The position numbers were made by a program, and so were the translations under genes. From Alphaproteobacteria bacterium (GTDB lineage Bacteria; Pseudomonadota; Alphaproteobacteria; Bin65), in contig JAJFFJ010000043.1 of the NCBI GenBank assembly GCA_021776685.1, positions 186,001 to 250,000 on the forward strand: a stretch of DNA of 64,000 nucleotides, given 5' to 3'. A model generated the notes under the pieces. The model had not been told where the DNA came from. It saw only the letters and a list, made by a program, of their open reading frames with translations, and did no database searches. Positions 1,699 through 47,649 of the stretch are shown in pieces; positions within the stretch are counted from its first letter, which is position 1; each line of letters starts with the position of its first letter.

Positions 1699-2850
1699 TT
1701 ACACAGGGCGCTGGTAGACGGTTTGAGCGTTGTGCAGGCCAAGTGCGCGGAAGGCCGCTTCACAGCCGGCGAGGTAAAACACCCAGAGCCGCCGGAAGCG
1801 CTCCGGGTATTTTTCTGGATCGAGGACGTGATAATTGGCGAGGAACCGTTGGCGCCAGTGCGCGAGGGTTGTGGCGTAGTTGACGCCGTCATGATGATAG
1901 GGGCCTGCGATTGGTCTGAGCCCGGCCGCATTTGCGCGATCAACCATTTCGGTCGTCCGGGGCACCCAGCCACCTGGAAAGATGTAGTGCTCTAGCCACG
2001 GGTCCGTCACCCGATACGGCCAGTCGACGATGCAATGGACCACCGCCAGTCCGCCAGGCTTCAGTAGACGTCGAATGCAGTCAAAAAAATCTTTCAGTTT
2101 GCGTCTGCCCACATGCTCGATCATGCCAATGGACAGGATCCGGTCAAATGCGCCAGGGTTTTCCCGCGCAAATTCCCGATAGTCCGCGAGTTTGAATACC
2201 GCCTCGGATTTGGCCTCATTGGCTCGATCTTGCGCGAGGTCAATCTGCTCCTGCGCCAGATTGATTCCGGTCACGTGCGCGCCCCGACGGCTGGCTTCGA
2301 TGGCGGCGCTGCCCCAGCCGCAGCCAATATCTAGAACGTTGGCACCCTCGAACAGTTGCAGGCGCTCGATAGCCGTGTCGATCTTGCGCTTTTGCGCGGC
2401 TGGCAGGTCACTATCCTGATCGTCAAAGAATCCACATGAATAGTTCATGCCTTCATCCAGAAACGTCGCGAACAACTCGTTGCCGCGGTCGTAATGGTGA
2501 GACGAATTCTGGTGGCTGGCGCGGGGCGTAGCCGACCGAGCTCCTGTGCTGATGCTATGCTTTATCCGGTAGATCGCGGTGTGATGTGGCAGGGGCCGGG
2601 AGAGGCCGTGTTGGCCCAAGAGGCGTAGGAATGGCTCGAGATGATCGAAGTCCATATCCCATTTGCGGTCCACAAAACCTTCTCCGAACGCCAGGGACCC
2701 GCGGATCGCCATATCCCGCCAGAGGCGTGGGTCGCTGACGTTCGCGCTGAAAGACTGGCCCGTGTCGAAGATAAACCGGCAGCTATCGGCTTCCGAAATA
2801 ATGTCCACCCCGTGCATCCGGAAATAGTGTCGGACCAGGGTTCTGAACAT
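1699..2850 (-). CDS. cfa: Cyclopropane-fatty-acyl-phospholipid synthase
   Basis: A 383-residue S-adenosylmethionine-dependent enzyme of the CFA synthase family, which adds a methylene bridge to unsaturated acyl chains of membrane phospholipids. Family hallmarks are HYDRGNELF near residue 119, YSCGFF near 137 and the SAM-binding LDIGCGWG at 173-180. Length matches the family. GGGAG lies about nine bases before the ATG. It is downstream of the oxygenase and megaenzyme genes on the same strand after a 138-base gap, so cotranscription is possible. It converges with the monooxygenase gene with only 18 bases between the stops. Confidence 0.9.
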   Translation of the reverse strand: MFRTLVRHYFRMHGVDIISEADSCRFIFDTGQSFSANVSDPRLWRDMAIRGSLAFGEGFVDRKWDMDFDHLEPFLRLLGQHGLSRPLPHHTAIYRIKHSISTGARSATPRASHQNSSHHYDRGNELFATFLDEGMNYSCGFFDDQDSDLPAAQKRKIDTAIERLQLFEGANVLDIGCGWGSAAIEASRRGAHVTGINLAQEQIDLAQDRANEAKSEAVFKLADYREFARENPGAFDRILSIGMIEHVGRRKLKDFFDCIRRLLKPGGLAVVHCIVDWPYRVTDPWLEHYIFPGGWVPRTTEMVDRANAAGLRPIAGPYHHDGVNYATTLAHWRQRFLANYHVLDPEKYPERFRRLWVFYLAGCEAAFRALGLHNAQTVYQRPV

Positions 2851-2988: not shown

Positions 2989-5900
2989 TCAAGCCGCGGC
3001 GTGTTTCTTTTTGAAGAGGCCGGTCAACTCATCTTTGGACCCAGGCCGAATGGCCGCCGCATTGCTGAAAGCATCCTTTGCGTCCGCGCGCCGGCCAAGC
3101 TGAAGGAATGCCTGGCCCTGGCAAACCAGGGCCGAATAGCTGGTTGCAATGTGGCCAGGTGCGCGGTCGATTAGGGTTAGGACATCACCTGGGCGGCCAG
3201 CGCTGAGATAGTTTTCCGCCAGAAGAGCATACAGCCAATAGGAGCTTGGGTTGAGATCGACCACAGTTTCCATATGAGCCGTTGCCTCTTGCTGCCTCCC
3301 GCGATGGGCGAGCATTTCGGCGAGTCGAACGCGCGTCCAAAGATGGGTCGCATCCATCTCCAACCCGTAGGCAAGTGTCGTTTCCGCGTCATCGAATTCA
3401 CCGGCTGCGATAAAGAGGCGGCCTTTCTGTTCGGCGACAGAAACATGATCGGGCGTGATCTTTCGAACTCGAGAAATGGCGGCATCCAAGCGGCCGGCAA
3501 GCGCCGTTCCTGCAAATCTGTGAGCAAAGCGTAATTCCGTCGTCAACGGCCAGGGATCGCGGGTCAGCGCGCCCAGATACGCTGTCTCTGCCGTCGCGGT
3601 ATCTCCGGCGTCCAACAGCGCTTCTGCGAGATTGCCGTAAGCCCAGAAGGGCTGGTCAGGATCGTGTCCGATAACCTCCTGATAGAGATCGATCTCTCGC
3701 TTTGTGTCGCCGGCGCGGGCTGCGGCCCGTGCCGCATAGCGCAGGCGACGCGCTCGTTCCATCTCGCCCCCGACTGGCGCTGCATGGCCAGCCTCGCGCT
3801 TCAGAACACTATCCAGCGCCTCAGCTAGATTGTCGACGCCTGCCGAGCGCAGGATTGATTCGTGGGACCCGCCAATGGGAATGATCTCGACGCCGCCCAA
3901 CGCAATTTCACCCCAGCCGCCGGTCGGGTCGGACCGGTGATATGCATCTTCCGATTCAGCGCGAAAATATACTACCCGGCCATGAAATGGCTTTGCGGCG
4001 CATCTGTCGAGCGCCCATTTGTTGTAGGCTTCAACAGTCTGGTCGGACGGACTGCGGGATTTTGCCGCTACATACCGATGGTCCAGTTCCGCTTCGTCAT
4101 CGAAGACCGCCAGCAAGGAGACTGGCTGACCGTAGTCTACAAAGCGGTGGATCATACCGAGCGCCACGTGAGCGCCCATAGAGAAGCCGGCGACGGCGAC
4201 TGGCCCATCAACTTTCTCTTTCATGACCATCGCCGCCATGTCCGCGCCAATCGTCATGACATCGCGGTCAACAGTTTCATCAAGTTCCAGCTTGGGGGCG
4301 TGCAGCACCCAGATTTCGTGCGCTGCCTTCAGGGCGGTCGCAAGTGCTGGCGCATATTCGACGGCGCCCTGGATCCCTGGCGCCAAAATCAAGCGTCCTC
4401 CCCCTTGGGCGCCAGCCAGTATTTCCACATGGCCCACGCCCGCCTGGCCACGGTACGCCGCGACGGCGCGTGCCAGGCCAATGGCCGAGTCTTCCTGGAG
4501 GAAGACCGCCGGGCTTAGGCTTGCGCCAAAACGTTGCTCAATTTCCAATAGAAGTTCTATCGCTGCTAGCGAATCGCCACCGCTCTCGAAGAATCCGTCG
4601 CCCGCGCTCATTGATGGTTGGCGTGCGTGCTGCCGTAAAAGTTCCAGAATATCATGCTCAAGCGTGGTGCTTGGCGTAGACAAAAATGGCAGCCGCAGCA
4701 GCGCACGGGCGCCGTTCCCGGCGAGATACGCGTATGTGTCGGCCAACGCGTTCCGGGATATCTTGCCTACGTCGTTTACCGGGATGTCTTGGACGACCAA
4801 GACACGCTCAGGAACCATATGGCTCGGCAACAGCGCGGCAGCAAAAAGCCTCACTTCAGCCTCATGGCTGTCCGCGCCGTGCGCAAGTTGTACAATCGAC
4901 ACCAGGCGCTGGCCCAGGAAGCGATCCGGAACGCCGAACGCTGCGGCTTGCGCCACATGCGGATGGCGGCGAAGAACTGCTTCAACCAGGTCAGGCATGA
5001 TCTTCTCAGCGCCCCTGCTGATCCGGTCGTCGACTCTGCCGACGACATATAGAAATCCCGCTGCATCCAACCGTCCGAGATCTCCAGTACGAAGGCGGCC
5101 AGCGTCATCCACCTGCGAATTGCAAGCCAGACTGCGGCTTACCACGGGGTTTATGTGGCCGCCTCGGACGGCAATCTCTCCCCGCTTACCCGCCTCCACC
5201 GGCAATCCGGCATCATCGAGTATCGCCACGTCCCAACGGGGATTGACCTGCCCCACGGCGTCGTCGGGTGTTGACTGATTCCGAGGCGTTAACGCGATGA
5301 AGGGCGAGGTTTCCGTCATGCCGTAGAATTGTACGACCTTCGCCTGCATTTCCTGGCGTAGGCGGTGCACCAAATCCGGCGAGACCCTGTCGGAGCCGAC
5401 GGCTGCAACTTTCAGGACGCCTGGCGGGGGTGTCCACCCGCGATCGGCCGCTTTTTCGAGGAGCGCCTGGAATATCGCTGGCGCGCCGCTCATGTAGGTG
5501 GGTTTACAGGCATTGATCCAGTCGATGATTCGTGCCCCCTGAAACCCAGGCGTCCAGACCACTTCCCCGCCGCTGGCCCAAATGGGAAGCGCGCTCCGAA
5601 TCAGGCTGTGCATGTGGGCGAACGGCATGACGCACAGGGAGCGGTCTGAAGAGGCCAAGCCAAGCTGCGCCGCAAAATCTCCGATTCCGTCCAGCAGGCT
5701 GCGATGGGTAGAGGCGACAATCTTTGGCGCTGCTGTGGATCCGGTTGTCATCGCCATCAATGCGATATCGCTCGAGTATGGTCCTTCATCCTCGCGGGCA
5801 GGATCAGCCCGGTCGACGGTCACCTCAAAACAGCCTGCGGGTCGGTCATGACCCGGCGTCATCCGCAGCAGCTTTGCGCCATGTGTGGCGGCAACTTCTA

Positions 5901-6264
5901 CGAGGGGCGCCGTCGGCCGATCCATCATCAAGACTGCTTTGACCTGAACCTCGACCTCGTTGAAAATATTCTCCCACACTTGGCGGGGCTCTAGAGGCGG
6001 CACCGGGAAGGCCGTCGCCACCGATGCGACACTCAGGAACGCGGTTAGCGCCGCCGGCCCGTCGGGCACCGATATCAGTACGATATCTCCACGGCCGATG
6101 CCCCAACCCCTCAGTTGCTGACCGGTTTGTTCGACAAAACGGGCAAGCGCGTCATGAGAGAGTGATGGCGCGCCAGCAATACCTGACAGGGCTGCCTTCT
6201 CGCCAAAGGAACGGGCTACTTTGCCTGCCATGCTGGCGATTGTCTGGCCGTCGCTGTCGCTCAC
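2989..6264 (-). CDS. Adenylation-carrier-thioesterase-TPR megaenzyme (NRPS-like)
   Basis: A 1091-residue multidomain enzyme. An AMP-forming adenylation domain spans about 1-515, with the phosphate loop MTTGSTAAPK (172-181), YGMTE (314-318), TGD (393-395) and the catalytic lysine in DVGKISRNAL (Lys501). A carrier domain (about 535-605) has the phosphopantetheine serine in GGDSL (Ser565). A thioesterase-like alpha/beta hydrolase follows (about 615-840) with nucleophile elbow GFSMG (Ser695). The C terminus, about 845-1085, is tetratricopeptide-like. No condensation domain is present, so it would activate one acyl or amino acid and release it hydrolytically or to a partner. Its ATG overlaps the oxygenase stop by four bases, implying coupled translation. 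The activated substrate is unknown. Confidence 0.85.
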   Translation of the reverse strand: MSDSDGQTIASMAGKVARSFGEKAALSGIAGAPSLSHDALARFVEQTGQQLRGWGIGRGDIVLISVPDGPAALTAFLSVASVATAFPVPPLEPRQVWENIFNEVEVQVKAVLMMDRPTAPLVEVAATHGAKLLRMTPGHDRPAGCFEVTVDRADPAREDEGPYSSDIALMAMTTGSTAAPKIVASTHRSLLDGIGDFAAQLGLASSDRSLCVMPFAHMHSLIRSALPIWASGGEVVWTPGFQGARIIDWINACKPTYMSGAPAIFQALLEKAADRGWTPPPGVLKVAAVGSDRVSPDLVHRLRQEMQAKVVQFYGMTETSPFIALTPRNQSTPDDAVGQVNPRWDVAILDDAGLPVEAGKRGEIAVRGGHINPVVSRSLACNSQVDDAGRLRTGDLGRLDAAGFLYVVGRVDDRISRGAEKIMPDLVEAVLRRHPHVAQAAAFGVPDRFLGQRLVSIVQLAHGADSHEAEVRLFAAALLPSHMVPERVLVVQDIPVNDVGKISRNALADTYAYLAGNGARALLRLPFLSTPSTTLEHDILELLRQHARQPSMSAGDGFFESGGDSLAAIELLLEIEQRFGASLSPAVFLQEDSAIGLARAVAAYRGQAGVGHVEILAGAQGGGRLILAPGIQGAVEYAPALATALKAAHEIWVLHAPKLELDETVDRDVMTIGADMAAMVMKEKVDGPVAVAGFSMGAHVALGMIHRFVDYGQPVSLLAVFDDEAELDHRYVAAKSRSPSDQTVEAYNKWALDRCAAKPFHGRVVYFRAESEDAYHRSDPTGGWGEIALGGVEIIPIGGSHESILRSAGVDNLAEALDSVLKREAGHAAPVGGEMERARRLRYAARAAARAGDTKREIDLYQEVIGHDPDQPFWAYGNLAEALLDAGDTATAETAYLGALTRDPWPLTTELRFAHRFAGTALAGRLDAAISRVRKITPDHVSVAEQKGRLFIAAGEFDDAETTLAYGLEMDATHLWTRVRLAEMLAHRGRQQEATAHMETVVDLNPSSYWLYALLAENYLSAGRPGDVLTLIDRAPGHIATSYSALVCQGQAFLQLGRRADAKDAFSNAAAIRPGSKDELTGLFKKKHAAA

Positions 6265-7196
6265 GCCATCCCCACGTAGATTGCGCGATCACCGATAAAT
6301 GGCCGCCTGCCATGGGCGATGCGACTGTTGTCCAAAAGCAGGATGTCCCCCTGCCGCCAGGTGAATACAACCTCGCGGGCTGCCTGCATTCCGGTCAGAT
6401 AGGTGATGTCGTCTGCCCCGATCGGCGCACCATCGCCATAGAAGGCAATTTTCGGAAACTGGCTTTCGCCGCCGTACAGTTTTAACAGACGCTCGTAATG
6501 GCCTGGCCCAAGGTGGGCCGGGTGCCAGTTGACGGCTTGGCTCAGCCATACTTCCACACCGGTTTCCGGATGGGGGGCAATCGCCGGCGCACGCAGTTCC
6601 ACCCTCAGGCCTCCGTCATCGGTCCAGGTGAAGCCCGCTCCCTGTGATATCAGGGTGGCTTCTATCTTGTTCTGGTCTGCGCATTCATAGACCTGCATCC
6701 AGGACTTCCCGAAGCCATCGCCACCACTCAGGTTCATGACGTATAGGACGCCTTCTTCGCGAAAGCGGTCGACAATACGCGTGTCCAGCACTTCGGCAAA
6801 TCTGGCCATGTTCCCGATGGGTGTTTCACCGCCGGACTCTGCGGTGCGGTGGCAATAAAACCAAATCCGATCTGGAGGATTCGGAAAATAGGTCGCTTCG
6901 CAATGGAGCGGGATTGGTACCCGCGCGGAGTATTCCGTCGACGTGTAGATATTGCCGCCTAGATGGGATCGGGGAGACCCGCCGCCCACATAACGCCTGA
7001 GATCTGGCGACATGGAGCGGCAAACCTGTTCGAAACCTTCATGGGATCGAATTTCGGTGCCGCGGAATAACACGGCGCCTTGTTCCAGCAGGATTTTCTC
7101 TACGTGGCGCTTGTTGTCGCCCAGCCAGCTCGAAAAGTCCCCAGCCGCCATGCCGGAAACGTCGGTGTCGATAACCTTGAGAAGCGCGCTTTTCAT
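6261..7196 (-). CDS. TauD/TfdA-family Fe(II)/2-oxoglutarate-dependent oxygenase
   Basis: A 311-residue protein with the jelly-roll oxygenase signatures: proximal iron ligands in HCEATYFPNPP (His98, Glu100, so HxE rather than HxD) and distal His295 in IAHGRRPF. Enzymes of this family hydroxylate or desaturate small acids, and members coupled to carrier proteins hydroxylate tethered amino acids. The open frame extends upstream to 7382, but the recognisable domain begins right after ATG 7196 and the longer version would overlap the divergent glycosyltransferase region. The 3' end overlaps the megaenzyme start by ATGA, so the oxygenase may act on the substrate loaded there. HxE is a tolerated but less usual facial triad. 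Confidence 0.8.
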   Translation of the reverse strand: MKSALLKVIDTDVSGMAAGDFSSWLGDNKRHVEKILLEQGAVLFRGTEIRSHEGFEQVCRSMSPDLRRYVGGGSPRSHLGGNIYTSTEYSARVPIPLHCEATYFPNPPDRIWFYCHRTAESGGETPIGNMARFAEVLDTRIVDRFREEGVLYVMNLSGGDGFGKSWMQVYECADQNKIEATLISQGAGFTWTDDGGLRVELRAPAIAPHPETGVEVWLSQAVNWHPAHLGPGHYERLLKLYGGESQFPKIAFYGDGAPIGADDITYLTGMQAAREVVFTWRQGDILLLDNSRIAHGRRPFIGDRAIYVGMA

Positions 7197-7434
7197 GCGG
7201 TCGTTGCCACTCTGGCGTGAGGCGATCCGTGATTGGGGCGCCAAGCGCTGGGTGCCAATCCTCCCCATAATACCACGCGTATACTGAATGAAATGCTTCC
7301 ATTGCGAGCCAAATTGACGACGTTTGGTCCGGAACGGCGGCTGGAGTGTTTGTGGGATCGAAAATCTTTGCCGCCTGGCCACAGAGCCTGTTAGAGAGGC
7401 AGGGTCTGCTTTAGCACCGGCGGAGGGGACGAAG

Positions 7435-8379
7435 TTGCGCGCTGCTGTGGTTATTCCAATTCACAACGATCTCGATGCATGTCGTCGTGTTCTCAGCGAT
7501 ATTGAGTCTGTGGCTGACGGCATCTCCCATCAGCTTGAAATCGTGATCGTTGACGATGGGTCGAACAATCCGCCAATCCGGCCGGACAGCTTTGGTCCCT
7601 GTCGCCTTCGGGGCACATTGATCTCGCTGGTCCGGAATGTAGGTCAGCAGCGGGCGGCGACGATTGGCCTGTGCCACGTGGCCAAACGCGAAGACTTGGA
7701 CGCCGTCGTGCTTATGGATGGCGACGGGGAAGACAGGCCGGCCGACATACCCCAGCTCCTTGATTTGGTTGAAGAAGGTGATGCGACGGTTGTTGTCGCA
7801 TCGCGCAGGCGGCGCCAGGTTGGTATCCGATTTCGCTTCTTCTACTTTTTTTACAAGCTCATGTTTCGCCTTCTTACGGGCCGCTGGATCGACTTTGGCA
7901 ATTTTTCGGCCATGCACATCGATGCAGTACGCCGGTTGGCCTATTTGGACTCGCTCTGGCTTCACACCGCGGCCTCTGCGCTGATGTCCCGGGAACCGTT
8001 GAAGCGAGTCAAATGTGACCGGGGAGCCCGCCATCTGGGGAAGAGCAACTTCTCGTTTGCAATGCATGTCACTTATGGGCTCAGGGCAATTGCGGTTTTC
8101 AATGAAATATTGCTTGCCCGCATCGTTGTGTTGTCAGGTGCAATCTGTGCGGCCGCGCTCGCGGCAGTGTTGTTTGCTGTAAGTTTAAAATTGAGCGGCC
8201 TTGCAACACCCAATTGGGTGACGGTTGTCCTCGTTTCCATGGCTGTATTCACAGTCCAGGCGATTATCTTGTGCATTCTCGGAGTGCAGATTGCGTCGGC
8301 GAACCGATCCGCCTCGACGCGACCGCCCATTGCGTTTGCCGACCAGTATATTGCGGAGATTCGACAATTTTCGGCCTAG
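7435..8379 (+). CDS. Family 2 glycosyltransferase with two C-terminal membrane helices (DPM1/GtrB-like)
   Basis: About 314 residues. The GT-A nucleotide-sugar motif starts at VVIPIHNDLD, IVDDGS follows, and LMDGDGEDRP carries the metal-binding acidic pair. Two hydrophobic helices close the protein (IVVLSGAICAAALAAVLFAV and WVTVVLVSMAVFTVQAIILC). This is the arrangement of polyprenyl-phosphate sugar transferases such as GtrB or ArnC, which load a sugar on undecaprenyl phosphate at the inner membrane. TTG 7435 is preceded at good spacing by GGAGGGG; an in-frame TTG at 7324 has no ribosome site. The next membrane protein gene may use the lipid-linked sugar. Confidence 0.82.
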   Translation: MRAAVVIPIHNDLDACRRVLSDIESVADGISHQLEIVIVDDGSNNPPIRPDSFGPCRLRGTLISLVRNVGQQRAATIGLCHVAKREDLDAVVLMDGDGEDRPADIPQLLDLVEEGDATVVVASRRRRQVGIRFRFFYFFYKLMFRLLTGRWIDFGNFSAMHIDAVRRLAYLDSLWLHTAASALMSREPLKRVKCDRGARHLGKSNFSFAMHVTYGLRAIAVFNEILLARIVVLSGAICAAALAAVLFAVSLKLSGLATPNWVTVVLVSMAVFTVQAIILCILGVQIASANRSASTRPPIAFADQYIAEIRQFSA

Positions 8380-10142
8380 CATTTCTGTTTAGCCGTTGGT
8401 GGACATGGCTCTGCGCAATCCTTCTCGCTTTTATATGCGTTTCGATTGCCGGCTATACAGTCGCGCTGGTGATGACTTATTACCTTCAGGGTCCATTTTT
8501 CGACAGTTTTGCCCTGACTGAATATCTCTACACAATTTACCTGCCCGAATGGCCTTGGGTGTCCGGCCTGGGCTTTGCGGACAATGAGCACAGGCCCCTG
8601 TTTCCTATGCTGGTCTGGGCCTTGGATGCCACCTTATTTCGGTTTGATGGTTTGCTCAGCATCATTGTTTTGTTGGCAACGCTCGCCGCTTGCGGCCTGT
8701 GTTTTCTGCTCGCCGGATGGATGGTGAAGATTCCGCGTGACCCGGTCCCCTGGGCGGCGTTCGGGTTGGCCATTCTGATTCTGTTTTGGCCAGGCCACCA
8801 CGAAAACCTTCTGTGGCCCAAACAGGTTCATATGACCATGTCTTTGGCGGCGAGCCTGGCGGGCCTGCTTCTGCTGATTCGCTTCGACCGGATTCAGTCG
8901 ACGCAAATCGATACGCCCGCCGTCGGCCGGTTGCCGATCTGGGCAGCAGTTCTGTTTTTTGTCGCGAGTTTTTCATTTGCCTATGGGCTGGTCGCCTGGC
9001 TCACGGCCATCATCTTCGGTATTTGGCGGCAATGGCCCCGCACCACGGTGATGTTTCTGCTCGCGATTTTTATTATCACGCTGGCGATTTACTTCAATCC
9101 GTGGCGGCCGCCGGGCCGGATCACCTACAGTACTGGCAACACATTCGACCCGTTTGTATTCGTCCCGTTTGCCTGGGGTCTGATCGGTGCACCCCTTCGG
9201 ATGATTGTGTTGATCTTTGGCATTACCGATGACCTTCTCGTCGCTTTCGTCTTCGGCGCATTGGGTTTTCTGGGGTTGGTCGCGATTGCCGTCCATGCGC
9301 ATCGCAGCGGTCTCCGCCACGCCACACAAGATCCGTTGACGCTCTTCAGTCTGGCCGTATTGCTTTTTGCGGTTGGCGCCTTGTCGATGATTGCGTTGGG
9401 TCGTGGCGACGGCGGTTGGGAGGAAATCGGAGCGCCTCGTTACTTGCTTGTCAGCAATGTTCTATGGATCGCAATGATTGTCTATGTCCTACGGACAATT
9501 GAGCGTTTGAAACCCCGCAGACCCCACATGGTCGGGCTTCTGGCATATGGCGCGATGATCCTTGTTGCGACTACCTACTGGGGTTTTGGGAACATCCTCA
9601 AATCTGAATCACAACGGATTCACCTAGGAATGATCCTGCCGGTTGTTTTCACCAAGCACACACCGGCAGTAGACCTCAGCGACGACACCTATTTGCACCA
9701 TCGCATAGCCAGTAATTTCAAGACACAGATCAGGGTCTTTGGGTTGATGCGGTCACAAGGGGTTGGGCCTTATTCGCGCGCATGGCTCAAATGGCCGGGG
9801 CGGACGCTCTCTGACGCCTTCAAGACAACCACCCGTGTGAAATGCCGAGGGTCCATTGACCATCTGCGGCCGTATTGGCGCACGGGCGCACATGTGGTTG
9901 GGTGGGCCTGGGACCCGGAGCGGCGGCAGGCCGTCGATCATGTGGTACTGGTTGACAAGGCTGGTATCATACAGGGGGTAGGTCATGGCGGAAATCGACG
10001 GCCTGATGTGGCCAACGACGGCCGAGTTGAGGGCGATCAGCATACCGGCTGGACTGCGTTTGCCCGAGTACCACCAGCAAATATCGTCACCGTTTATGGT
10101 GTGATAGATGATCAACTCGCCTGCAGATTGGATAGGAGTTAG
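8271..10142 (+). CDS. Polytopic membrane protein, GT-C-like glycosyltransferase (function unproven)
   Basis: A large protein with about ten hydrophobic helices followed by a soluble C-terminal domain of about 120 residues. The first external loop contains GFADNEHRPLFP, the sort of acidic loop where GT-C enzymes place catalytic residues. The tail has GWAWDPERRQ and RRPDVAND, a beta-rich module I recall at the end of many envelope glycosyltransferases. The start is unclear: the frame opens at TTG 8214, GTG 8271 still overlaps the previous gene, and the first ATG (8472) would delete most of helix 1. No ribosome site supports any of them. It follows a GtrB-like transferase and probably uses its lipid-linked sugar. 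Confidence 0.65.
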   Translation: MHSRSADCVGEPIRLDATAHCVCRPVYCGDSTIFGLAFLFSRWWTWLCAILLAFICVSIAGYTVALVMTYYLQGPFFDSFALTEYLYTIYLPEWPWVSGLGFADNEHRPLFPMLVWALDATLFRFDGLLSIIVLLATLAACGLCFLLAGWMVKIPRDPVPWAAFGLAILILFWPGHHENLLWPKQVHMTMSLAASLAGLLLLIRFDRIQSTQIDTPAVGRLPIWAAVLFFVASFSFAYGLVAWLTAIIFGIWRQWPRTTVMFLLAIFIITLAIYFNPWRPPGRITYSTGNTFDPFVFVPFAWGLIGAPLRMIVLIFGITDDLLVAFVFGALGFLGLVAIAVHAHRSGLRHATQDPLTLFSLAVLLFAVGALSMIALGRGDGGWEEIGAPRYLLVSNVLWIAMIVYVLRTIERLKPRRPHMVGLLAYGAMILVATTYWGFGNILKSESQRIHLGMILPVVFTKHTPAVDLSDDTYLHHRIASNFKTQIRVFGLMRSQGVGPYSRAWLKWPGRTLSDAFKTTTRVKCRGSIDHLRPYWRTGAHVVGWAWDPERRQAVDHVVLVDKAGIIQGVGHGGNRRPDVANDGRVEGDQHTGWTAFARVPPANIVTVYGVIDDQLACRLDRS

Positions 10143-10250
10143 ATGATCCTCGCCGGCCACCCCTTTACTTTGCAAGCGCGATAAGCCTGTTTGACTTGGC
10201 CAAACGTGGAGAAGAAGGCCGCCCGTGCGGGCGAGGTGTCAATTCAGCAA

Positions 10251-11438
10251 ATGCAAACGACATTCTACATATACGGATATGACCCGAGGGTCGGCCGTTT
10301 CTATTCAAAGCATCTGAAAGACAATCTGGCCAAACAGCTGGCGGAGGATGGTGACCCTCGGGCGTCAGACCTGTCACTCACCGTGAATTCCTTGGAGCAT
10401 ACTGTCCTGGTACCCGCTGCAGGTGATGGGGAGGAGGCCCAGGTAGTCGTCCCATCCTGGTCCAGGATCATTTACGACACCATCACCCGAAACCGCCTTC
10501 TGATGGCTTTTCGCTACAATGTCATTGTGATGAAGGCGGTGCTGGACGGATCTTTCGTTCGCTACTTTCAGGTGTCGTGGAAATTCACCTCGGCGGTGGC
10601 ATTTTTCTTCCTGGCTCCGGTCGTGCTGGCGCTGTTGATGGCAATACCTTTTTACCTATTTTCGGAAACGGGCAGTTGGCTGCATGCGGCTCTGGCTGTT
10701 CTGGTCTTTGCCGGTGCCTATGCTGCTGCCTGGTCCCATTTTTCCGGGTTTCTTTTTGTGCGGTACCTGTTCTGGTCGATCTGTTTCGTCGGCGACCTTG
10801 GGGGAACCAGCAAACGTCTTACGCGGCATTTGCCCGCCCTTGACGCCAAGCTCGACGAGATCGCTGAAGGGGTTCTGGCAGTGTTGCGTGCCGGGCGGCC
10901 GGACGACACGGTGACCATTGTTGGCCACAGCACCGGCGCAATTCTTGCGCTGGCCGTTGCCGCCAGGCTCGCAAACTCCCCCGATTTCATATCGGCAGGG
11001 TATGCGGTCAGACTAATGACCCTCGGGGGTACTTGGGGCATTCTGGCTTTGGGCGCAGGAGGGCGCGCGAAGGCTCACCGACGGGAAATCGTTGATGTCC
11101 TCAACTGCGAAGGGGTCACTTGGTACGACGTGGCAGGCGGCGAAGACATCATCACGGTCCCGTATACATACCTGAAAATGAGGAAGATCCTGAAGGTAAA
11201 AAATATCGATATTGTAGGGAAACTGAACTATGTAGACCCGCTTTACCCGACATTGTTCCAAGAAAGTTTCTATAGAAAAAACATGAGAAATTTTTTACTT
11301 CTACATTTTCAATATATAGATAGACCTCAGAATATTTTGAGCTTTAATTTGTTTAAATTGATGCTGTATCGATGGAAGAAAATTGAAGGCGATGGCACTA
11401 TTATTTATCAGGACCCCCAACATCAAAGTCCCCTCTAG
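10251..11438 (+). CDS. Membrane-anchored alpha/beta-hydrolase-like protein, unknown function
   Basis: About 395 residues, family not recognised. A hydrophobic pair in the middle (AVAFFFLAPVVLALLMAIPF and a second helix about 15 residues later) is followed by a hydrolase-like segment with TIVGHSTGAILALAVAA, a GxSxG nucleophile elbow. A catalytic Asp and His cannot be assigned by eye. The open frame extends to TTG 10191; ATG 10251 was preferred, with GAGGTG some 14 bases upstream. The last 70 codons are strikingly AT-rich and rich in Lys, Asn, Phe and Tyr compared with the rest of the gene and its neighbours, suggesting a recombined 3' end. Position suggests a role in envelope glycan or lipid handling. 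Confidence 0.6.
   Translation: MQTTFYIYGYDPRVGRFYSKHLKDNLAKQLAEDGDPRASDLSLTVNSLEHTVLVPAAGDGEEAQVVVPSWSRIIYDTITRNRLLMAFRYNVIVMKAVLDGSFVRYFQVSWKFTSAVAFFFLAPVVLALLMAIPFYLFSETGSWLHAALAVLVFAGAYAAAWSHFSGFLFVRYLFWSICFVGDLGGTSKRLTRHLPALDAKLDEIAEGVLAVLRAGRPDDTVTIVGHSTGAILALAVAARLANSPDFISAGYAVRLMTLGGTWGILALGAGGRAKAHRREIVDVLNCEGVTWYDVAGGEDIITVPYTYLKMRKILKVKNIDIVGKLNYVDPLYPTLFQESFYRKNMRNFLLLHFQYIDRPQNILSFNLFKLMLYRWKKIEGDGTIIYQDPQHQSPL
11201..11410. other. AT-rich patch at the 3' end of a hydrolase-like gene
   Basis: This stretch is much richer in A and T than its surroundings, with runs such as tagaaaaaacatgagaaat and atattttgagctttaattt. It is inside the 3' coding end of the gene at 10251-11438 and reverts to normal high GC just after the stop. 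No insertion sequence ends or direct repeats were seen. It may mark an old recombination junction. Confidence 0.55.
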
Positions 11439-11531
11439 GTCTAGGGGCAGACAGAAAATTGCGGACCTCTCCGGTCAACTTGAGAATTGGCAGTTGCAGC
11501 GGCGCGCGCTGGCGGGAAGGCCGTACCTGAG

Positions 11532-12683
11532 ATGACAACCGTAATCTGTTTTGTTCTACTTGGCTGGGCGGCGGTGGGACTGTCGGTGCAGCTATATTCG
11601 ATGATCCTCGCTGCGCTGTACCGCAAATATGGCGGACGCACGCGGCGCGAGGTGTCCGACTATCCGCGAGTGTCAATCCTGCTTCCGATCAAAGGGGCTG
11701 ATGCGGAAATGGAGCGCAATTTGCAGGCTCTGACCAAGCAGGACTATCCAGAGTACGAGCTCCTTCTTGCCTTCTCCGATCGGGACGACCCGGTGCTGCC
11801 CCTGGCCCGGCAAGTCGCCAACGACTCCAAAATTCCGGTTCATATTCTGGTCGACGACGAGGACGACCGCGCCTTGCCAGGCGGGAATCCGAAACTCACC
11901 AACCTGGCCAAGGCCTACAGGGCCGCCCGGTATCCGGTTCTGGTTCATGTGGACGCAAATGTGGTTTTTGAACCGCATCGTCTGCGTTCGACGATTGCGT
12001 TGATGGATTCCGGCACGGCGATCGTCTCAACAACTGTTTTGGGCGTACGCCCCGGCGGCCTGGCGGGACATGTCGAGTGCGCCTTTTTAAACGGCCAACA
12101 GGCACGTCTTCTACTGGCGGCGGCAGCGTTGCGTATACCTTTTGCGATGGGAAAAATTCTCGCTTACCGGAGACGCGACCTGGAGAATGCAGGTGGATTT
12201 GACCTGCTTCTCACCGAGCTTGCCGATGATGCGGCCGTCGCCTCCCGTGTGCGGAAGGGCGGCGGCAAGCTGAGATTCGATCCCAATTTGCTTGAGCTCC
12301 CCGTTGGCCAGCGTTCGTGGGCTGAAGTGTGGCGGCGACAGCACCGCTGGTTGGTTGTGCGACGGGGGCTTGTGCCTCATGTCTTTGTGTCGGAGCTTCT
12401 GTTTTCTGCGGTCGTCACTGCCGCTGTTTGCGTTGGGGCAGGGCTGTGTTGGGGCCTTGGCGCCGGCCTGAGTTTTGGACTTTGGGCCGTGGCCTGGTAT
12501 GGCGCGGAGGCAGGGTTTCTACTGCTGCAGCGATGGCCTGTCTCGCTCATTTCGCCGGTAGCATGGCTTCTGCGGGACCTGGCTTTTCCAATCCTGTGGG
12601 GTTGGGGGCTGGCATCGCGACAGGTGCATTGGCGAGGCCAGACCGTCAGTTCATCTGCGACGCCAGAAAGCAGCAGCCATTGA
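11532..12683 (+). CDS. Family 21-type glycosyltransferase, ceramide glucosyltransferase/HpnI-like
   Basis: A 383-residue membrane-bound processive-type transferase. An N-terminal helix (ICFVLLGWAAVGLSVQLYSM) precedes the GT domain, with RVSILLPIKG, LVHVDANVVFEP and ELADDAAVASRV as the three acidic regions and RRQHRW as the (Q/R)xxRW signature. Two or three hydrophobic segments close the protein. This layout is shared by ceramide glucosyltransferase and by HpnI, which transfers GlcNAc in hopanoid synthesis. A GTG at 11487 is an alternative start; ATG 11532 has GGGAAGG about 12 bases upstream. With a serine-palmitoyltransferase-like gene 10 kb away, a sphingoid acceptor is plausible but inferred. 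Confidence 0.78.
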   Translation: MTTVICFVLLGWAAVGLSVQLYSMILAALYRKYGGRTRREVSDYPRVSILLPIKGADAEMERNLQALTKQDYPEYELLLAFSDRDDPVLPLARQVANDSKIPVHILVDDEDDRALPGGNPKLTNLAKAYRAARYPVLVHVDANVVFEPHRLRSTIALMDSGTAIVSTTVLGVRPGGLAGHVECAFLNGQQARLLLAAAALRIPFAMGKILAYRRRDLENAGGFDLLLTELADDAAVASRVRKGGGKLRFDPNLLELPVGQRSWAEVWRRQHRWLVVRRGLVPHVFVSELLFSAVVTAAVCVGAGLCWGLGAGLSFGLWAVAWYGAEAGFLLLQRWPVSLISPVAWLLRDLAFPILWGWGLASRQVHWRGQTVSSSATPESSSH

Positions 12684-12700
12684 GACATCCACGTGAAAGC

Positions 12701-13471
12701 ATGTGGCGGAAAATTCGGGCAGCCGTGGCAGGCGCCGGACCACGGCCGCGTATCCCGGTAGACGCCAAACCAGTTTGCTGTCTGGTCCACGTTTTTTATC
12801 CGGAGATCTGGCCGGAGCTGGCGGCTCATATCAAGCACCTCGGCGATGCGCCGTTCGAGATTCATGTGAATGTGGTCAACCATGTGGCGACCGAAAACTT
12901 CATCGCCACGATTCGCGGGGATTTCCCGGATGCAACCATTCGGGTTTCACCGAATCGGGGCAGGGACATCGGCGGATTTTTCGCTCTATTGGAAGGTGTC
13001 GATTTCTCACGGCACGATTTGTTTTGCCTTCTTCACACCAAGCGCAGCCCGCATATGATCGGCTTCGGGGGGCGGAACTGGCGACGGTCCCTGTTGAAGG
13101 CCATTCTCGGCTCTGAACGGCAGGCCGCGATAAATATTGACGCCATGCTGAAAGATCCTGGAATTGGCGTGATTGGCGCAAAAAAGCATCGGTCGCAGCG
13201 AATATTCGCCAATCGCGAGCTTTATGATCGCTTCCTGGATCAACTGGGCATCGAAGGCGCGGCCCGCGATTGTGAATTTGTCGCCGGGACCATGATGCTG
13301 GTGCGAAGCGGGATACTGGAAACAATGTTTAGGGCATTCCGCGACCTGGATTTTGAACCAGGTGACGACCTATCACTCAAAGGTCATTTGGATGGACAAA
13401 TCGCCCACGCGATGGAACGGATCATCGGCAGCATCGTCAGGGCGAAGGGACTTCGTTTTCACTGGCGGTAG
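12701..13471 (+). CDS. Rhamnan synthesis protein F (RgpF)-like glycan protein
   Basis: A 256-residue protein resembling the RgpF family found in rhamnose-polymer and other glycan clusters. Typical features are a Rossmann-like opening (PVCCLVHVFYPEIWPELAAH), NRGRDIGGFF, LLHTKRSPH and a late FVAGTMMLVR segment. Family members are thought to add or help to add sugars during surface polysaccharide assembly. The frame is open from 12329, but the upstream part lies in the preceding gene and has no domain; ATG 12701 or TTG 12680 (touching the previous stop) are the realistic starts. It converges with the next transferase gene with a 35-base overlap of the coding ends. Confidence 0.75.
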   Translation: MWRKIRAAVAGAGPRPRIPVDAKPVCCLVHVFYPEIWPELAAHIKHLGDAPFEIHVNVVNHVATENFIATIRGDFPDATIRVSPNRGRDIGGFFALLEGVDFSRHDLFCLLHTKRSPHMIGFGGRNWRRSLLKAILGSERQAAINIDAMLKDPGIGVIGAKKHRSQRIFANRELYDRFLDQLGIEGAARDCEFVAGTMMLVRSGILETMFRAFRDLDFEPGDDLSLKGHLDGQIAHAMERIIGSIVRAKGLRFHWR

Positions 13472-14807
13472 GGGCGCTTGGTCCTTTCTCGACCAATGCC
13501 AGCGGATCGCCTGTTGACCAGGTCACAAGGCGGTTTCCGGACAAGCGGATCCTGAGAATATCAAGCACCGCCGAGGGCGGGTCCGTGGCCTGCCGGTCCA
13601 CCAGAATGTGCAGTTTTCCTGATTGCGGTGGTATCGCGTCGGCGACTGCTTCTGCGCTTTCCGTGCAGTTCAGCACAATGGTGTCGAAATGCCGCCACGC
13701 CAATGCCCCAGCGGGATTACCCCGCGTCGCTTGTGGTTGGCCGCCGGCTGCCCAGAAGCCGCCCGAGACCAGCGACGGGAGATCCCTGGTCCGGGCAACG
13801 GTTGCAAACTGGCCCGCATCCAAGAGTTGGCCGGCCAGTCTAGCGGACGCGGCGCGCGCGCCCGGTTCAACAATCAGGGTCCAGGCGCCGGTGTTCCGTC
13901 CGACAATAGCTTTCAGGTAATTCCACGGCGCGGCACTGGCCCGCCCTCGCAGGACCGATTTGTGGCGCGCCACCATGCGTCGCCGGTTTGTCATCATCCG
14001 TTTAAGGGCGCTGGCCAGGGAAGAGCTACCGAAATTCAGGTGTACAGCCTTGAGCCCGGGATCGTACAGCACGCGGTGACCCGCAGCCCGGGCTCGAAAG
14101 CAGAAGTCCATTTCTTCGTAGTAGGCAGGCAGAAAGACCTCATCGAATCCGTTCAATTGCTCGAATACGGCGCGGCGCGTCGTGAGAAACGCCCCACAGA
14201 CGTAGTCCACGTCCCGTTCGATCCGGCAAGCCACCTGATCGGGTCTTCGGCCAGCACCAAACCCGATCGCCTTCGCATCCCGCCATACCACCGTCCCAGC
14301 CTCCTGCAGCCTGCCGGATGGCAGAACAATGCGCGCGCCGACAATCCCGATCCCATCGTCCTGCCGCAGACGCCAGGCCGCGCGTGCCAAGGCGCCCGGC
14401 AACGGAAAGGCGTCGTTGTTCAGCAATGTCAGGTGATCGCCCCTGGCCTGGTTCGCCGCCTGGTTGACCGCCAACAGAAACCCCTGGTTCTCAGAATTGG
14501 AAATAATCTTGGCGCCTCGGACCTTGGCCAGAAGCTCAGCTGTGCGGTCGCTCGACGCGTTGTCGACGATGATTACTTCGAAGGCGACCCCGGCCTGGAT
14601 CTGAAGGCTTTGCAGGCAACGGTATGTGAGTTCCGCCTGATTGAAGAGCACGACAATGACCGAGATCTCGGGCGCGTCTGACGGGGGAAACTCGATGTTA
14701 CCTGGCGTCGCAACAAAATCATCAAGATCAACCTGGGCCTCTTGGCGAAGGCCGCGCCGCGATGTGCCACTTCTTAGTTTGGCAAAGAAAGCGTCTGATG
14801 TGGGCAT
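13437..14807 (-). CDS. Family 2 glycosyltransferase, rhamnosyltransferase-like
   Basis: A 456-residue protein with a GT-A domain: ISVIVVLFNQAELT, IIVDNASSD, LLNNDAFPLPGAL (DxD-like) and YYEEMDFCFRARAAG, which matches the ED(V/L)D-type base region of WbbL-like rhamnosyltransferases. The C-terminal 150 residues form a second domain of unknown role. ATG 14807 begins just before the domain; an upstream ATG at 14897 would run toward the divergent permease gene. It is transcribed opposite to its neighbours and converges with the RgpF-like gene. With rfbACD nearby, dTDP-rhamnose is a likely donor. No membrane helix is evident. Confidence 0.8.
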   Translation of the reverse strand: MPTSDAFFAKLRSGTSRRGLRQEAQVDLDDFVATPGNIEFPPSDAPEISVIVVLFNQAELTYRCLQSLQIQAGVAFEVIIVDNASSDRTAELLAKVRGAKIISNSENQGFLLAVNQAANQARGDHLTLLNNDAFPLPGALARAAWRLRQDDGIGIVGARIVLPSGRLQEAGTVVWRDAKAIGFGAGRRPDQVACRIERDVDYVCGAFLTTRRAVFEQLNGFDEVFLPAYYEEMDFCFRARAAGHRVLYDPGLKAVHLNFGSSSLASALKRMMTNRRRMVARHKSVLRGRASAAPWNYLKAIVGRNTGAWTLIVEPGARAASARLAGQLLDAGQFATVARTRDLPSLVSGGFWAAGGQPQATRGNPAGALAWRHFDTIVLNCTESAEAVADAIPPQSGKLHILVDRQATDPPSAVLDILRIRLSGNRLVTWSTGDPLALVEKGPSAPTASENEVPSP

Positions 14808-14926
14808 TGGCCTCTCAGATTTGCGATGAACGGGCCTGCTTTGACCCTCAGCTAGCACAGGCAGCCATCGTTCGTCAGCAGCTGGACACTTGCTCACATG
14901 GACCGGCGACAGGTGTATGTTGCAAG

Positions 14927-14956
14927 GACAATGGCAATGGCAATGACGATGACAAC
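14927..14956 (+). repeat. Degenerate six-base tandem repeat before the permease gene
   Basis: Five consecutive six-base units read GACAAT, GGCAAT, GGCAAT, GACGAT, GACAAC just upstream of the permease start. Changes in copy number would shift the spacing of the start region by six bases and keep the frame of the small upstream ORF. Confidence 0.5.
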
Positions 14957-14966
14957 ACGATGTTGA
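14931..14966 (+). promoter_or_regulatory. Possible leader ORF overlapping the permease start
   Basis: An 11-codon frame reads MAMAMTMTTRC and ends in TGA at 14964-14966, overlapping the permease ATG at 14960. AAGGA at 14924-14928 is well spaced for its second or third ATG, whereas the permease ATG has no ribosome site of its own. This would allow translation of the permease to be coupled to termination on the leader. The whole element could also simply be the mutated repeat described here. Confidence 0.3.
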
Positions 14967-16063
14967 TCGACCGCTATCTGTTTTGGCAATTGCTGAAATG
15001 GACAGCCGTTTTTGTGCTTGTCCTGGTCCATGCCGTTGTTTTTGCCGGCATGGCGCTGCTGGTGTCCCAGGTCATTGAGCACAATCTACCGTTTTCAACC
15101 ATCTGGATTGCCTATTTCGGATTGTTGCCCAATGCACTGTACCTGACCCTGCCGCTGTGCACGGCACTGGCTGTTTTTTGGGTTTATGGGCAGCTGTGGA
15201 GCACCCGCGCGCTGCCTGTACTCTATGCCAGCGGCATTTCAACGGTTCGTCTGGCAGCACCGGCAATTGTGGTGGCGTTCGTAGCTTCCCTCGGTGGCGC
15301 TCTTGTTGGCCATTTTTGGGCGCCTGTGGGCGCCGCGGCGTTGGAAGATACAAAGCACCTTTTGCGTCACGGTGGCGCTGTTACCCAGGTTCGGCCAGGA
15401 CGGTTCACCACAATCTCCGACGGCCCAGTTGTGCTGTTTTTCCAGCGCTGGGCCAGGCCTGGCGTTCTGCTGAATCCGCTTTTGCATGACGGCAGGGACA
15501 AAGCTATGCCGGTCGTGATCACCGCAAAGGAAGCCGATGCGACGACCACCGCGAACTACCACATTCTGGTTTTCCGCAATGGCTATCTCCACCAGGGGCG
15601 CGGGCTTCAAGGGCTGAGGATCGTCCAGTTCGGGCGTATCGCGATCAAGGTGCGCCGGAAACCTGTCCCGCCAAGAACCGGCCGGCCGCCCTATGAGCTG
15701 GATACGTCAGTTTTGATGAACCCCCCGGCCAACTGGGTAGATGACCCGAGAATGGTCAACGATGCCCGGTCCGAACTGCAGAAGCGCTTCGTCATTCCGC
15801 TCCTCGCTTTCGTGTTGTCGGTATTTGTTCTGGGGGCGATGCTGCTGTTCGTTCCCGGGTCGCAGCGACCAGTCCTGCGGCAAGCGGTCATTGGCCTGAC
15901 TATGATTCTGGGCAATATCTCCATCATCATTCTGGTCGATACGGGGGCCCGGTATTCGCATGCCATTGTGGTGATGACCTACGTCATCTGTGCGCTGGTG
16001 GTGACGATGGGCGCGGCTTTTATCTGGATCAAAAATACCCGGGCATTCCTGCGTCGGTTTTGA
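14960..16063 (+). CDS. LptF/LptG (YjgP/YjgQ)-family permease, solitary copy
   Basis: A 367-residue inner-membrane protein with three N-terminal helices (about 13-35, 47-75, 95-120), a periplasmic beta-rich domain (about 120-260) and three C-terminal helices (about 275-353), the LptF/LptG architecture. In the canonical LPS exporter, LptF and LptG pair with the ATPase LptB and hand lipid to LptC and the periplasmic bridge. Here only one such gene is present, embedded in a glycan/lipid island, so it is more likely a paralogue serving another lipid, for example a glycosphingolipid, than the housekeeping pair. The true start is the MLIDRYLFW position; sequence upstream is the repeat region. Confidence 0.82.
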   Translation: MLIDRYLFWQLLKWTAVFVLVLVHAVVFAGMALLVSQVIEHNLPFSTIWIAYFGLLPNALYLTLPLCTALAVFWVYGQLWSTRALPVLYASGISTVRLAAPAIVVAFVASLGGALVGHFWAPVGAAALEDTKHLLRHGGAVTQVRPGRFTTISDGPVVLFFQRWARPGVLLNPLLHDGRDKAMPVVITAKEADATTTANYHILVFRNGYLHQGRGLQGLRIVQFGRIAIKVRRKPVPPRTGRPPYELDTSVLMNPPANWVDDPRMVNDARSELQKRFVIPLLAFVLSVFVLGAMLLFVPGSQRPVLRQAVIGLTMILGNISIIILVDTGARYSHAIVVMTYVICALVVTMGAAFIWIKNTRAFLRRF

Positions 16064-16118
16064 ACATAGCGGTTGCCCAATCTGGTGCAGCGGCGCCCCA
16101 ACCGCGTGGACGGGCAGC

Positions 16119-17282
16119 CTAAAATGGACTTGGGTCGCCGATATCTTTGCCGAAGATCCGGTATCGTTTGTGTGGCGTCATCCCGGCGGTTTCGGCAAAC
16201 CGGATCGTTCCGCGGTTGTCCTCCAAAATCCAGCCGGCTTCGACCCTGGTTACGGGGCGGCTTCGTCCCACGGCAGTTGCCGTGTAGAAAACGACAGCTT
16301 GTGCTATGGCCCCCGCGGCGGTGTCCTGGAGGCTCCGCCGCACCCCAGCCAGGGGCAGGTGATGGGTGCTCAGCGGCTTGATTTTGAGGTGCCACAGCAG
16401 CCGCAGCCACCCAAACGGCAGCAGCCTGCCGCGCAGCCGGTGCAGCACTTCGTTGATATCTGGAATTGTGCAGGCCATCGCCACGACCTCACCGTTGCGC
16501 TCCGCAATTCCAAGACCTTTCGGGTAGATGATTGTTCGCAGGTCCTTGACCAACTGATTGGCCTCCCGTTGGGTAATCGGAACAAAGCCCCAATTGCCCG
16601 CCCATGCGTCATTAAACAGGGTGATGAGGTTGTGTATATCCCTGGTCAGGTGCTTTCGGGAGGAGTGGCGAAACTGAAATCCGGCCTCTGCTGCCGCGGT
16701 TTCCATACGGGACAGGTTCCGGTCCAGGCCCGTCATCATTCCAAATGACACATAAGACAACAGATCCTTTTCCTTTCCATAGCCGAGCGCGGCAAGCCGG
16801 CACTGGTAGTATGGGCGCGCATGGCCCAGACCGAATGCAGGACGGATATCGAAACCCTCCACCAGCAGGCCGCATTCTTCGTTGATCGACAGGTTGAAGG
16901 GGCCGGTCAGTCGCTCCATGCCCTGGGTGCGGGCCCACCCTTCGGCCGTTTTTAGAAGGCCCTCGAATAATGTGGGATCATCGACTGCCTCGAGCATGGA
17001 GAAGTGCCCGGTGCTGTCGTCATGGTGTTTCAAGTGAAGATGATTAATGACCGCGCCGATGCGGCCGACTGGTTTATTATCGCGATATGCAACCCAGAAA
17101 CGGCCAACGCCATGTTCATAGAACGGGTGCTTGCGTCGGGGAGAAATCCGCCTGCGCTCGATATGGCGGAGCGGCGCAACCCAATGCTCGTCACCAGCAT
17201 AGACAGTGAAGGGCACGTCCAGAAAATCCCGTATGGTCTTCCGGTCCACGACTTCGCGGATGTTGATCTTTGCGCCGCTCAT
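16119..17282 (-). CDS. GNAT-superfamily acyltransferase, YghO-like; candidate ceramide synthase
   Basis: A 387-residue protein. The opening INIREVVDRKTIRDFLDVPF, then KHPFYEHGVGRFWVAYRDN, LTGPFNLSINEECGLLVEGF and a second GNAT-like half near the C terminus match the two-lobed YghO-type N-acyltransferase family. The founding enzymes are poorly characterised; the bacterial ceramide synthase known from Caulobacter is also described as GNAT-like, so an N-acyl transfer to a sphingoid base is a reasonable hypothesis here. The upstream SDR gene ends 13 bases before this start, so they form an operon. An earlier in-frame ATG at 17336 would overlap the SDR. Function remains inferred. Confidence 0.7.
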   Translation of the reverse strand: MSGAKINIREVVDRKTIRDFLDVPFTVYAGDEHWVAPLRHIERRRISPRRKHPFYEHGVGRFWVAYRDNKPVGRIGAVINHLHLKHHDDSTGHFSMLEAVDDPTLFEGLLKTAEGWARTQGMERLTGPFNLSINEECGLLVEGFDIRPAFGLGHARPYYQCRLAALGYGKEKDLLSYVSFGMMTGLDRNLSRMETAAAEAGFQFRHSSRKHLTRDIHNLITLFNDAWAGNWGFVPITQREANQLVKDLRTIIYPKGLGIAERNGEVVAMACTIPDINEVLHRLRGRLLPFGWLRLLWHLKIKPLSTHHLPLAGVRRSLQDTAAGAIAQAVVFYTATAVGRSRPVTRVEAGWILEDNRGTIRFAETAGMTPHKRYRIFGKDIGDPSPF

Positions 17283-17295
17283 ATTGGACAAGACA

Positions 17296-18138: not shown

Positions 18139-18261
18139 TCAGTTCGGCGTCGTGCAACATACAGGAACGCGGCGATCTCTCCTTTCGATACCACGATATG
18201 GCAGGGCTTGCGGGCAGATCGCTGTCCGGGCGTAGTAATTGTGCAGAGAGGCGAGCAAGCG

Positions 18262-18813: not shown

Positions 18814-18854
18814 CTGCGCGTCGCCCCCGCGCTGATACAGGTCTATATAGAATA

Positions 18855-19883: not shown

Positions 19884-19888
19884 GCGGC

Positions 19889-20779: not shown

Positions 20780-20783
20780 TTCA

Positions 20784-21650: not shown

Positions 21651-21708
21651 ATTGCTGATCGGCAAAGCCGGTTTACCGAGCATTGACTTATTAGGAGCTT
21701 CATCATCC

Positions 21709-22515: not shown

Positions 22516-22538
22516 GAAGGACGACCAGAGGCAGACGG

Positions 22539-23756: not shown

Positions 23757-23982
23757 TTCGATTGCCTCGTTTGGGTATTCAGGCTTTTACTGGCTCAAAG
23801 TTGGTCGGCACGCCCACCCAGTGCCCCACAATGGGCCAAATGCTATGCGCCAACATATCAGCGCTACAAGTTCCATGGGTAGGATTTCCTGTCCGTGGGC
23901 GAACAACAGTCTTATTACGGAAATTTTGGACAAAATATACCAGCGGAATAGCAGCTTCGGCCTATTCCCAAAAAAGATCGTG

Positions 23983-25083: not shown

Positions 25084-25137
25084 CTATTCATCGCCCAAAA
25101 ATATGGTCTTCGCCTTCGTTCGTCAGAACGCGCGCTT

Positions 25138-26577: not shown

Positions 26578-26830
26578 TGAAAACGACTCTTCCTGAGCTT
26601 CACATATCCATCCGCCAGACAAGGCGAAGGTCTGCCAACTATAAGCGGTTCACGCCCTTGGTGGTGAGGCAATCTACTGTCCGCGCATTTCAGGTCCCTA
26701 TGTCAATCTGTGACACGCCGTGGTCGCCGTTGATTCTGGACGGGCGCTTGTGTTTGTTGGGCCGTTGGCTGTGACCGGCATCCGGGTAGGTCCCTTTCTT
26801 CCGGGCAGGTCACTGGCCTGAAGGAATACA

Positions 26831-47648: not shown

Positions 47649-47649
47649 T

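Follow-up and report, generated by a model that had tools for sequence, protein, structure and literature searches.

A TauD-family oxygenase gene overlapping the gene for a one-module adenylation-carrier-thioesterase-TPR enzyme: a candidate unit for carrier-tethered oxidation

The gene pair and its domains

The subject of this analysis is a pair of overlapping genes on the minus strand of a 64,000-nucleotide stretch of DNA from an alphaproteobacterial draft genome (GCA_021776685.1), the whole of which will be referred to as the window. The first gene (6261..7196) codes for an Fe(II)/2-oxoglutarate oxygenase of the TauD family, which is 311 aa long when read from the ATG at 7196, the reading frame as listed being 6261-7382. 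The second gene (2989..6264, stop codon included), which starts with GTG, codes for a 1091-residue megaenzyme consisting of an adenylation (A) domain, a carrier (T) domain, a thioesterase (TE), and an array of tetratricopeptide repeats (TPR). As read from the sequence, the start codon of the megaenzyme and the TGA stop codon of the oxygenase share the four bases GTGA (6261..6264, running 6264-6261 in the direction of reading). A first-pass annotation of this DNA had reported such an overlap and placed the pair at 2989-7196; the former was borne out, and the latter proved exact. Both genes are intact, the megaenzyme being one open frame, and the pair is internal to a contig of 302,847 bases, away from the contig end.

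A Pfam scan of the megaenzyme matched AMP-binding at residues 17-370 and 427-501, PP-binding at 550-600, Thioesterase from 624, and several TPR models within 860-1075 and found no Condensation domain in the protein, which agrees with the previously annotated architecture of loading, carrier, thioesterase, and TPR domains. The A domain (residues 17-501, 4762..6216) is oxalyl-CoA-synthetase-like and has Lys501 at the expected catalytic position, together with H217, R223, G290, D292, and P321. The T domain (residues 550-600, 4465..4617; PF00550) has its phosphopantetheine site at Ser565, and the TE (residues 624 to ~820, 3805..4395; PF00975) contains Ser695 (in the motif GFSMG), Asp722, and His801. 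The TPR array (residues 860-1075, 3040..3687) is a genuine tail on this NRPS-like (nonribosomal peptide synthetase-like) protein and recurs in a second organism, Paracoccaceae strain La 6 (La6); a TPR from a mis-joined gene was ruled out by the single open frame and the same TE-TPR order in La6.

The oxygenase matches TauD (PF02668) with an E value of 1e-33, and the closest solved chains are At3g21360 (E 3e-35) and 9yut (E 3e-30). H98 and E100 are present in 37/37 aligned relatives, and H295 and R304 are kept in all 36 aligned relatives with a letter at that column; the four codons lie at 6905-6903, 6899-6897, 6314-6312, and 6287-6285, respectively, on the minus strand. The protein thus has the features of the TauD/TfdA group: besides the PF02668 match and the HxE...H iron site, an Arg close to the distal His is conserved. 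The chemistry of TauD enzymes is varied, and the Glu of the HxE site argues against a classical halogenase site, not against desaturation or decarboxylation; a halogenase was therefore rejected on the presence of E100. An A-domain match was found in the 1.5-kb flanks, which are short, of 8 of 29 oxygenase relatives (L011-L039), and NRPS genes adjoin all four annotated plasmid relatives that were inspected, the fifth relative carrying no annotation. We conclude that the oxygenase, judged by its sequence, falls in a TauD group found with NRPS lines, studied members of which hydroxylate substrates attached to a carrier. A single-sequence structure model of the oxygenase had a mean pLDDT (predicted local distance difference test) of 34.1 and was set aside, no result being drawn from it.

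The top solved matches of the A domain are oxalyl-CoA synthetases: the grass pea enzyme 6qjz (E 3e-56), followed by 5ie0 (E 2e-52), the Arabidopsis enzyme, and Pcs60p (E 5e-43). A structure model of the domain, of moderate quality (pLDDT 63.5), ranks the same oxalyl-CoA synthetase entries first, a ranking that is biased toward the ligase type because relatives of that type went into building the model. In a tree of 63 rows, which did not include the sequence of the plant enzyme AAE3, the domain lies in a clade of its own beside 54 other ligase-type domains, and five amino-acid-type NRPS A domains lie on a separate far branch (support 100/100). At the A4-motif column, the A domain of the window has His, not Asp. 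An amino-acid-type A domain was ruled out by the family matches (acyl-CoA ligases and oxalyl-CoA synthetases), the tree branch, and the A4 motif, and we conclude from these comparisons that the domain is of the oxalyl-CoA-synthetase/acyl-CoA-ligase type.

Recurrence and descent of the pair

On plasmid CP031593 of La6, a marine bacterium, an oxygenase gene overlaps by 4 bases a gene for a 1117-residue A-T-TE-TPR protein. The two proteins are 44% and 33% identical to the oxygenase and megaenzyme of the window, the oxygenase is annotated as trimethyllysine dioxygenase, and the pair is set among genes annotated for nicotinate catabolism. The comparative genomics of the A-T-TE-TPR architecture, which the first-pass annotation had proposed as a check, thus yielded the same pair with the same overlap and the same tail. 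In a genome of a cyanobacterial family (G798), an oxygenase and an 836-residue A-T-TE without TPR are encoded tail to tail, surrounded by genes that are housekeeping-like by eye. In Crocosphaera watsonii WH 8501, the A-T-TE, again without TPR, is broken into pieces on two contigs (L092:9233-11074 and L076:5842-6513) beside transposase-like genes. Four oxygenase matches were found in Crocosphaera, one of them full-length and outside the clade described below, two partial and best matched to NRPS-line enzymes, and one a remnant of 122 residues on another contig (L126 1462-1830, G750:C134), which ends prematurely at a stop, with a transposase-like gene behind it. This remnant matches the three clade oxygenases best (105, 101, and 101 bits; the next match scores 87). 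The broken A-T-TE and the oxygenase remnant together indicate that both partners were once in the Crocosphaera genome, their former adjacency not being visible on separate contigs of a draft genome. We also note a gene that is sulfotransferase-like by eye (L126:507-1358), which ends ~100 bases before the oxygenase remnant on the same strand; it is a possible sulfation partner in cyanobacteria.

In the 63-row tree, a clade supported at 99/96 unites the A domains of the window, La6, and G798 with the fragmentary one of Crocosphaera. The oxygenases of the window, La6, and G798 likewise form one clade (99/94, 37 rows), which persists at 98/98 when five near plasmid relatives are added as controls (41 rows); matches spanning fewer than ~240 residues were left out of the oxygenase trees, and row L015_621-1454 was left out of the 41-row tree. 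The pairing occurs in three places and two gene orders, co-directional and overlapping in the window and La6 and convergent in G798, and the flanking genes differ. The matched clades support descent as a pair, short of proof, given the long branches and a set of rows gathered by similarity to these proteins. Because the clades of both partners are separate from the sampled NRPS-line relatives and the flanking genes differ, the pair is apparently a rare stand-alone unit. The two genes could instead be mere neighbours, the A-T-TE making a free acid or feeding an NRPS and the oxygenase acting elsewhere, and at E<=0.001 the genome does have one condensation (C)-domain gene, which encodes a one-module C-A-T-TE NRPS (L140:601-4479, contig C43). 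However, a pairing that is kept in two phyla, in differing gene order, with matched trees, and with remnants of both partners in Crocosphaera makes such a coincidence very unlikely.

We searched for further pairs, scoring two candidates per genome in the searches of 385, 398, and 319 genomes. The megaenzyme matched its own genome alone, both among 61 kin genomes (E<=1e-80) and among 385 genomes of the class (E<=1e-90), and a two-row profile (A1) matched 31 of 398 genomes of the phylum at E<=1e-75, none but the window past the T region. A contig search with the oxygenase gave 46 pattern matches and no relative; that with the megaenzyme gave 21 loci, of which 13 lie outside the clade by tree, one is a Crocosphaera piece, and seven are short, partial, and unplaced. 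The family of Crocosphaera (4/50 genomes matched) yielded G798, and in the class of G798 (21/319 matched), G798 is the sole clade member among those treed. Two matches in genome G1033 reach the TE, of which one (C57) lies outside the clade and the other (C48) was left out of the tree; the former is an independent stand-alone A-T-TE of 913 aa, whose A domain is of the oxalyl-CoA-synthetase type (L127:8284-11025). None of 59 matching phage records covers 80% of the megaenzyme, and La6 alone does so among 2887 matching plasmid records; La6 is also the top oxygenase match among 109 plasmid records and again among 96. With the cyanobacterial A-T-TE as the query, 327 of 3195 plasmid records reach 80% coverage, and the matches listed include La6 and 11 others; as these 11 are unexamined, absence of the clade from plasmids is not established for this query.

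A proposed reaction and its alternatives

Starting from the domains, catalytic residues, and gene coupling, which are the parts read from the sequence, we lean modestly toward the view that the two genes form a self-contained carrier-tethered oxidation unit, for which we infer the substrate class, carrier-bound action, hydroxylation, and release as follows. The A domain would adenylate a small carboxylic acid, not an ordinary α-amino acid and perhaps a dicarboxylic one, and load it onto T. The oxygenase would dock on T and oxidise the acid while it is tethered as a thioester, C-H hydroxylation being the most likely reaction, after which the TE would cleave the oxidised acid off or pass it to an acceptor; the alphaproteobacterial TPR tail would probably dock the acceptor or a partner protein. 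Oxidation on the carrier is proposed because of the logic of CysH/CysJ and of NikP1/NikP2 and Bhp. In excerpts of PMC7966384, CysJ, described as SyrP-like, hydroxylates T-bound, not free, asparagine, and excerpts of PMC4147253 give release of the hydroxylated acid from the carrier by a TE as established for NikP1/NikP2 and Bhp. The first-pass annotation had one carrier-bound acid hydroxylated and released; the matched-clade pairing fits that account, whereas its carrier-bound action, hydroxylation, and hydrolytic release keep the conditional standing given here.

Several residues bear on the nature of the acid. R223 is found in 3/3 intact clade members and in 0/54 ligase-type domains outside the clade, and it is also legible in the Crocosphaera N-terminal piece. 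Among other residues, G290 and D292 are common to the three intact members and occur in 1/54 and 0/54 of the other ligase-type domains, respectively. P321 is likewise found in all three, at a column where 47 of the 54 have His, and a His of AAE3 is aligned with it. R223 is aligned with the Trp column of the amino-acid A4 motif, which presumably corresponds to position 239 in the GrsA pocket or, in another register, to DhbE position 240. An Arg at this probable pocket position would suggest, with low confidence, that the acid bears a second negative group. Searches of the open-licence literature gave nothing on point for oxalate-binding residues. Further, the fusion of the carrier to the A domain suggests that T rather than CoA is the acyl acceptor.

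As to the oxidation itself, the T-bound acid could instead undergo desaturation, decarboxylation, or some other oxidation driven by 2-oxoglutarate, given the diverse chemistry of TauD enzymes and an HxE Glu that is compatible with such reactions. However, the carrier-linked enzymes PtcA/PtcB, SyrP, and CysJ are, in the excerpts of the literature available to us, established or proposed β-hydroxylases, and we consider a reaction other than hydroxylation improbable.

The TE residues Ser695, Asp722, and His801 are invariant in 4/4 clade members, as is Ser565 of the T domain, and probably form the catalytic triad. According to excerpts of PMC6668435, the β-lactone-forming TE of ObiF uses a Cys in GXCXG; as there is a Ser here where ObiF has Cys, a β-lactone-forming TE of that kind is not favoured. 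We also considered that the TE may be a transferase, passing the oxidised acyl group to a TPR-bound partner (protein, lipid, or polysaccharide), as the TPR tail in both alphaproteobacterial members (window and La6, by Pfam) and the position of the window pair next to a glycosyltransferase and other surface-polysaccharide-like genes would suggest. Yet the two cyanobacterial members (G798 and Crocosphaera) have no TPR by Pfam and end after the TE, and neither the annotated neighbours of the La6 pair nor, by eye, those of the G798 pair include polysaccharide genes, and we regard the transferase as rather unlikely. Because the cyanobacterial members stop after the TE, the TPR appears dispensable for the unit in some hosts; in the two alphaproteobacterial forms it is an addition, perhaps a docking site. 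Finally, the A-T-TE could act as fungal AtrA and Ralstonia RalA do, forming a ring from two identical keto acids, with the oxygenase tailoring the free product; the domain order, without a C domain, is the same in those enzymes. As the oxygenase relatives are tied to NRPS lines and the A domain is closest to oxalyl-CoA synthetases, we find this very unlikely, RalA and AtrA having been compared by description only.

Several points weigh against a carrier-tethered oxidation unit. The putative action of this oxygenase clade on a carrier-bound acid is argued by analogy alone, and the placement of R223 in the pocket hinges on the alignment register. The trees have long branches, and treekit warns of long branches meeting. 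All searches together found only three intact pairs. The G1033 A-T-TE outside the clade (C57) has no oxygenase match in its 19-kb stretch, which implies that an A-T-TE alone does not imply an oxygenase. The C-A-T-TE NRPS is a possible client of the unit, and nothing connects the two. Lastly, the genome has one phosphopantetheinyl transferase match (PF01648) at E<=0.01, and this sole match is AcpS-like by eye, which bears on how T would be primed. A wider proposal, that the pair is a new two-gene pathway of Alphaproteobacteria and cyanobacteria in which a small dicarboxylic acid would be hydroxylated as a carrier thioester outside NRPS and polyketide synthase (PKS) lines and, in the alphaproteobacterial form, delivered to a TPR-held partner, serving general metabolism or protein/polysaccharide modification and not a peptide natural product, is one that we hold as doubtful.

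A cyclopropane fatty acid synthase-like gene (cfa, 1699..2850, minus strand) follows the megaenzyme by 138 bases on the same strand and is context outside the conserved unit. The first-pass annotation had raised the possibility that it uses the product of the pair; as cfa is not adjacent to the La6 or G798 pairs and has two cfa-like relatives (37%) elsewhere in the genome, this link is without support. On the other side of the pair, the window contains glycosyltransferases, a sugar epimerase, an aminotransferase, a Wzt-type ABC transporter, and an LptF/LptG-like permease (7324-26622), and a surface polysaccharide region probably begins there. A DUF4286 protein is followed by a 3-hydroxybenzoate/salicylate-hydroxylase-like FAD monooxygenase at 148-1680. 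Molybdenum hydroxylase and hydantoinase/acetophenone-carboxylase-like genes are found both in the window (45372-61914), ~38-55 kb from the pair, and in La6 (L009:349-17057), within ~9 kb of it.

Relation to known systems

The logic proposed for the pair is known from NikP1/NikQ/NikP2 and CysH/CysJ; new are the ligase-type A domain, the TauD oxygenase, the fused TE, the TPR tail, and the lack of a recognised surrounding pathway, no pathway genes having been recognised around the window pair. We found no paper on an A-T-TE-TPR protein with an oxygenase in the open-licence literature. In two β-hydroxy amino acid units, NikP1/NikQ/NikP2 of nikkomycin and BpsD/OxyD/Bhp of balhimycin, an A-T protein loads an acid, a separate oxygenase acts, and a TE releases the product, as proposed for the window. 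In both units, oxidation takes place on T, and the oxidant is a P450. They differ from the window in using an α-amino acid and a separate TE and in sending the product to an antibiotic, whereas the window has a ligase-type A domain, a TauD oxygenase, a fused TE, and a TPR tail. The window pair thus has A and T in one protein, a TE, a coupled oxygenase, and no C domain, as in NikP1/NikQ/NikP2, and lacks the amino-acid-type A domain of that system.

In CysH/CysJ (cystobactamid) and SyrP (syringomycin), a TauD-type enzyme acts in trans on a T-bound acid, and the relatives of the window oxygenase are likewise found in NRPS clusters. Those systems, however, serve a peptide assembly line, whereas the clade of the window oxygenase is separate in the tree and is paired with a one-module enzyme, SyrP and CysJ having been compared by description. 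The plant and yeast oxalyl-CoA synthetases AAE3 and Pcs60 are the closest solved relatives of the window A domain, but AAE3 is a single-domain CoA ligase, whereas the window domain is joined to a carrier, belongs to a separate clade, and has changed residues (P321, R223, and D292). RalA (ralfuranone) and AtrA (atromentin) have the A-T-TE order without a C domain seen in the window. Both dimerise aryl-pyruvates, and neither is known to have a partner oxygenase or TPR.

The same broad A-T type is also seen in oxalyl-CoA-synthetase-type A-T starters at NRPS loci of cyanobacteria and of two alphaproteobacterial genomes (G650 and G718), and in genome G954, such an A-T adjoins a TauD oxygenase. Unlike the window megaenzyme, these starters are proteins that lack both TE and TPR, and other NRPS domains are found next to them or joined to them. 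By eye, the NRPS genes L060:6830-13399 (G718) and L059:7965-11219 (G650) start with a ligase-type A-T followed by condensation-like domains. The G954 cluster (L129:2071-10208) comprises the oxalyl-CoA-synthetase-type A-T, the TauD oxygenase, an A-T whose N-terminal extension is unusual, and a carrier-bearing gene that is fatty-acyl-AMP-ligase-like; it adjoins a glycosyltransferase-like gene and has no condensation domain by eye, the Pfam scan having covered the first A-T. Overall, carrier-bound oxidation is usually regarded as tailoring within large assembly lines for peptides or polyketides; if the proposal made here is true, a minimal pair that occurs in two phyla, and whose A domain is of the ligase type and not the amino-acid type, would use it to make one small oxidised acid. 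With two proteins, the unit is small enough for complete in vitro testing, and its fused TPR gives access to the receiver of the product.

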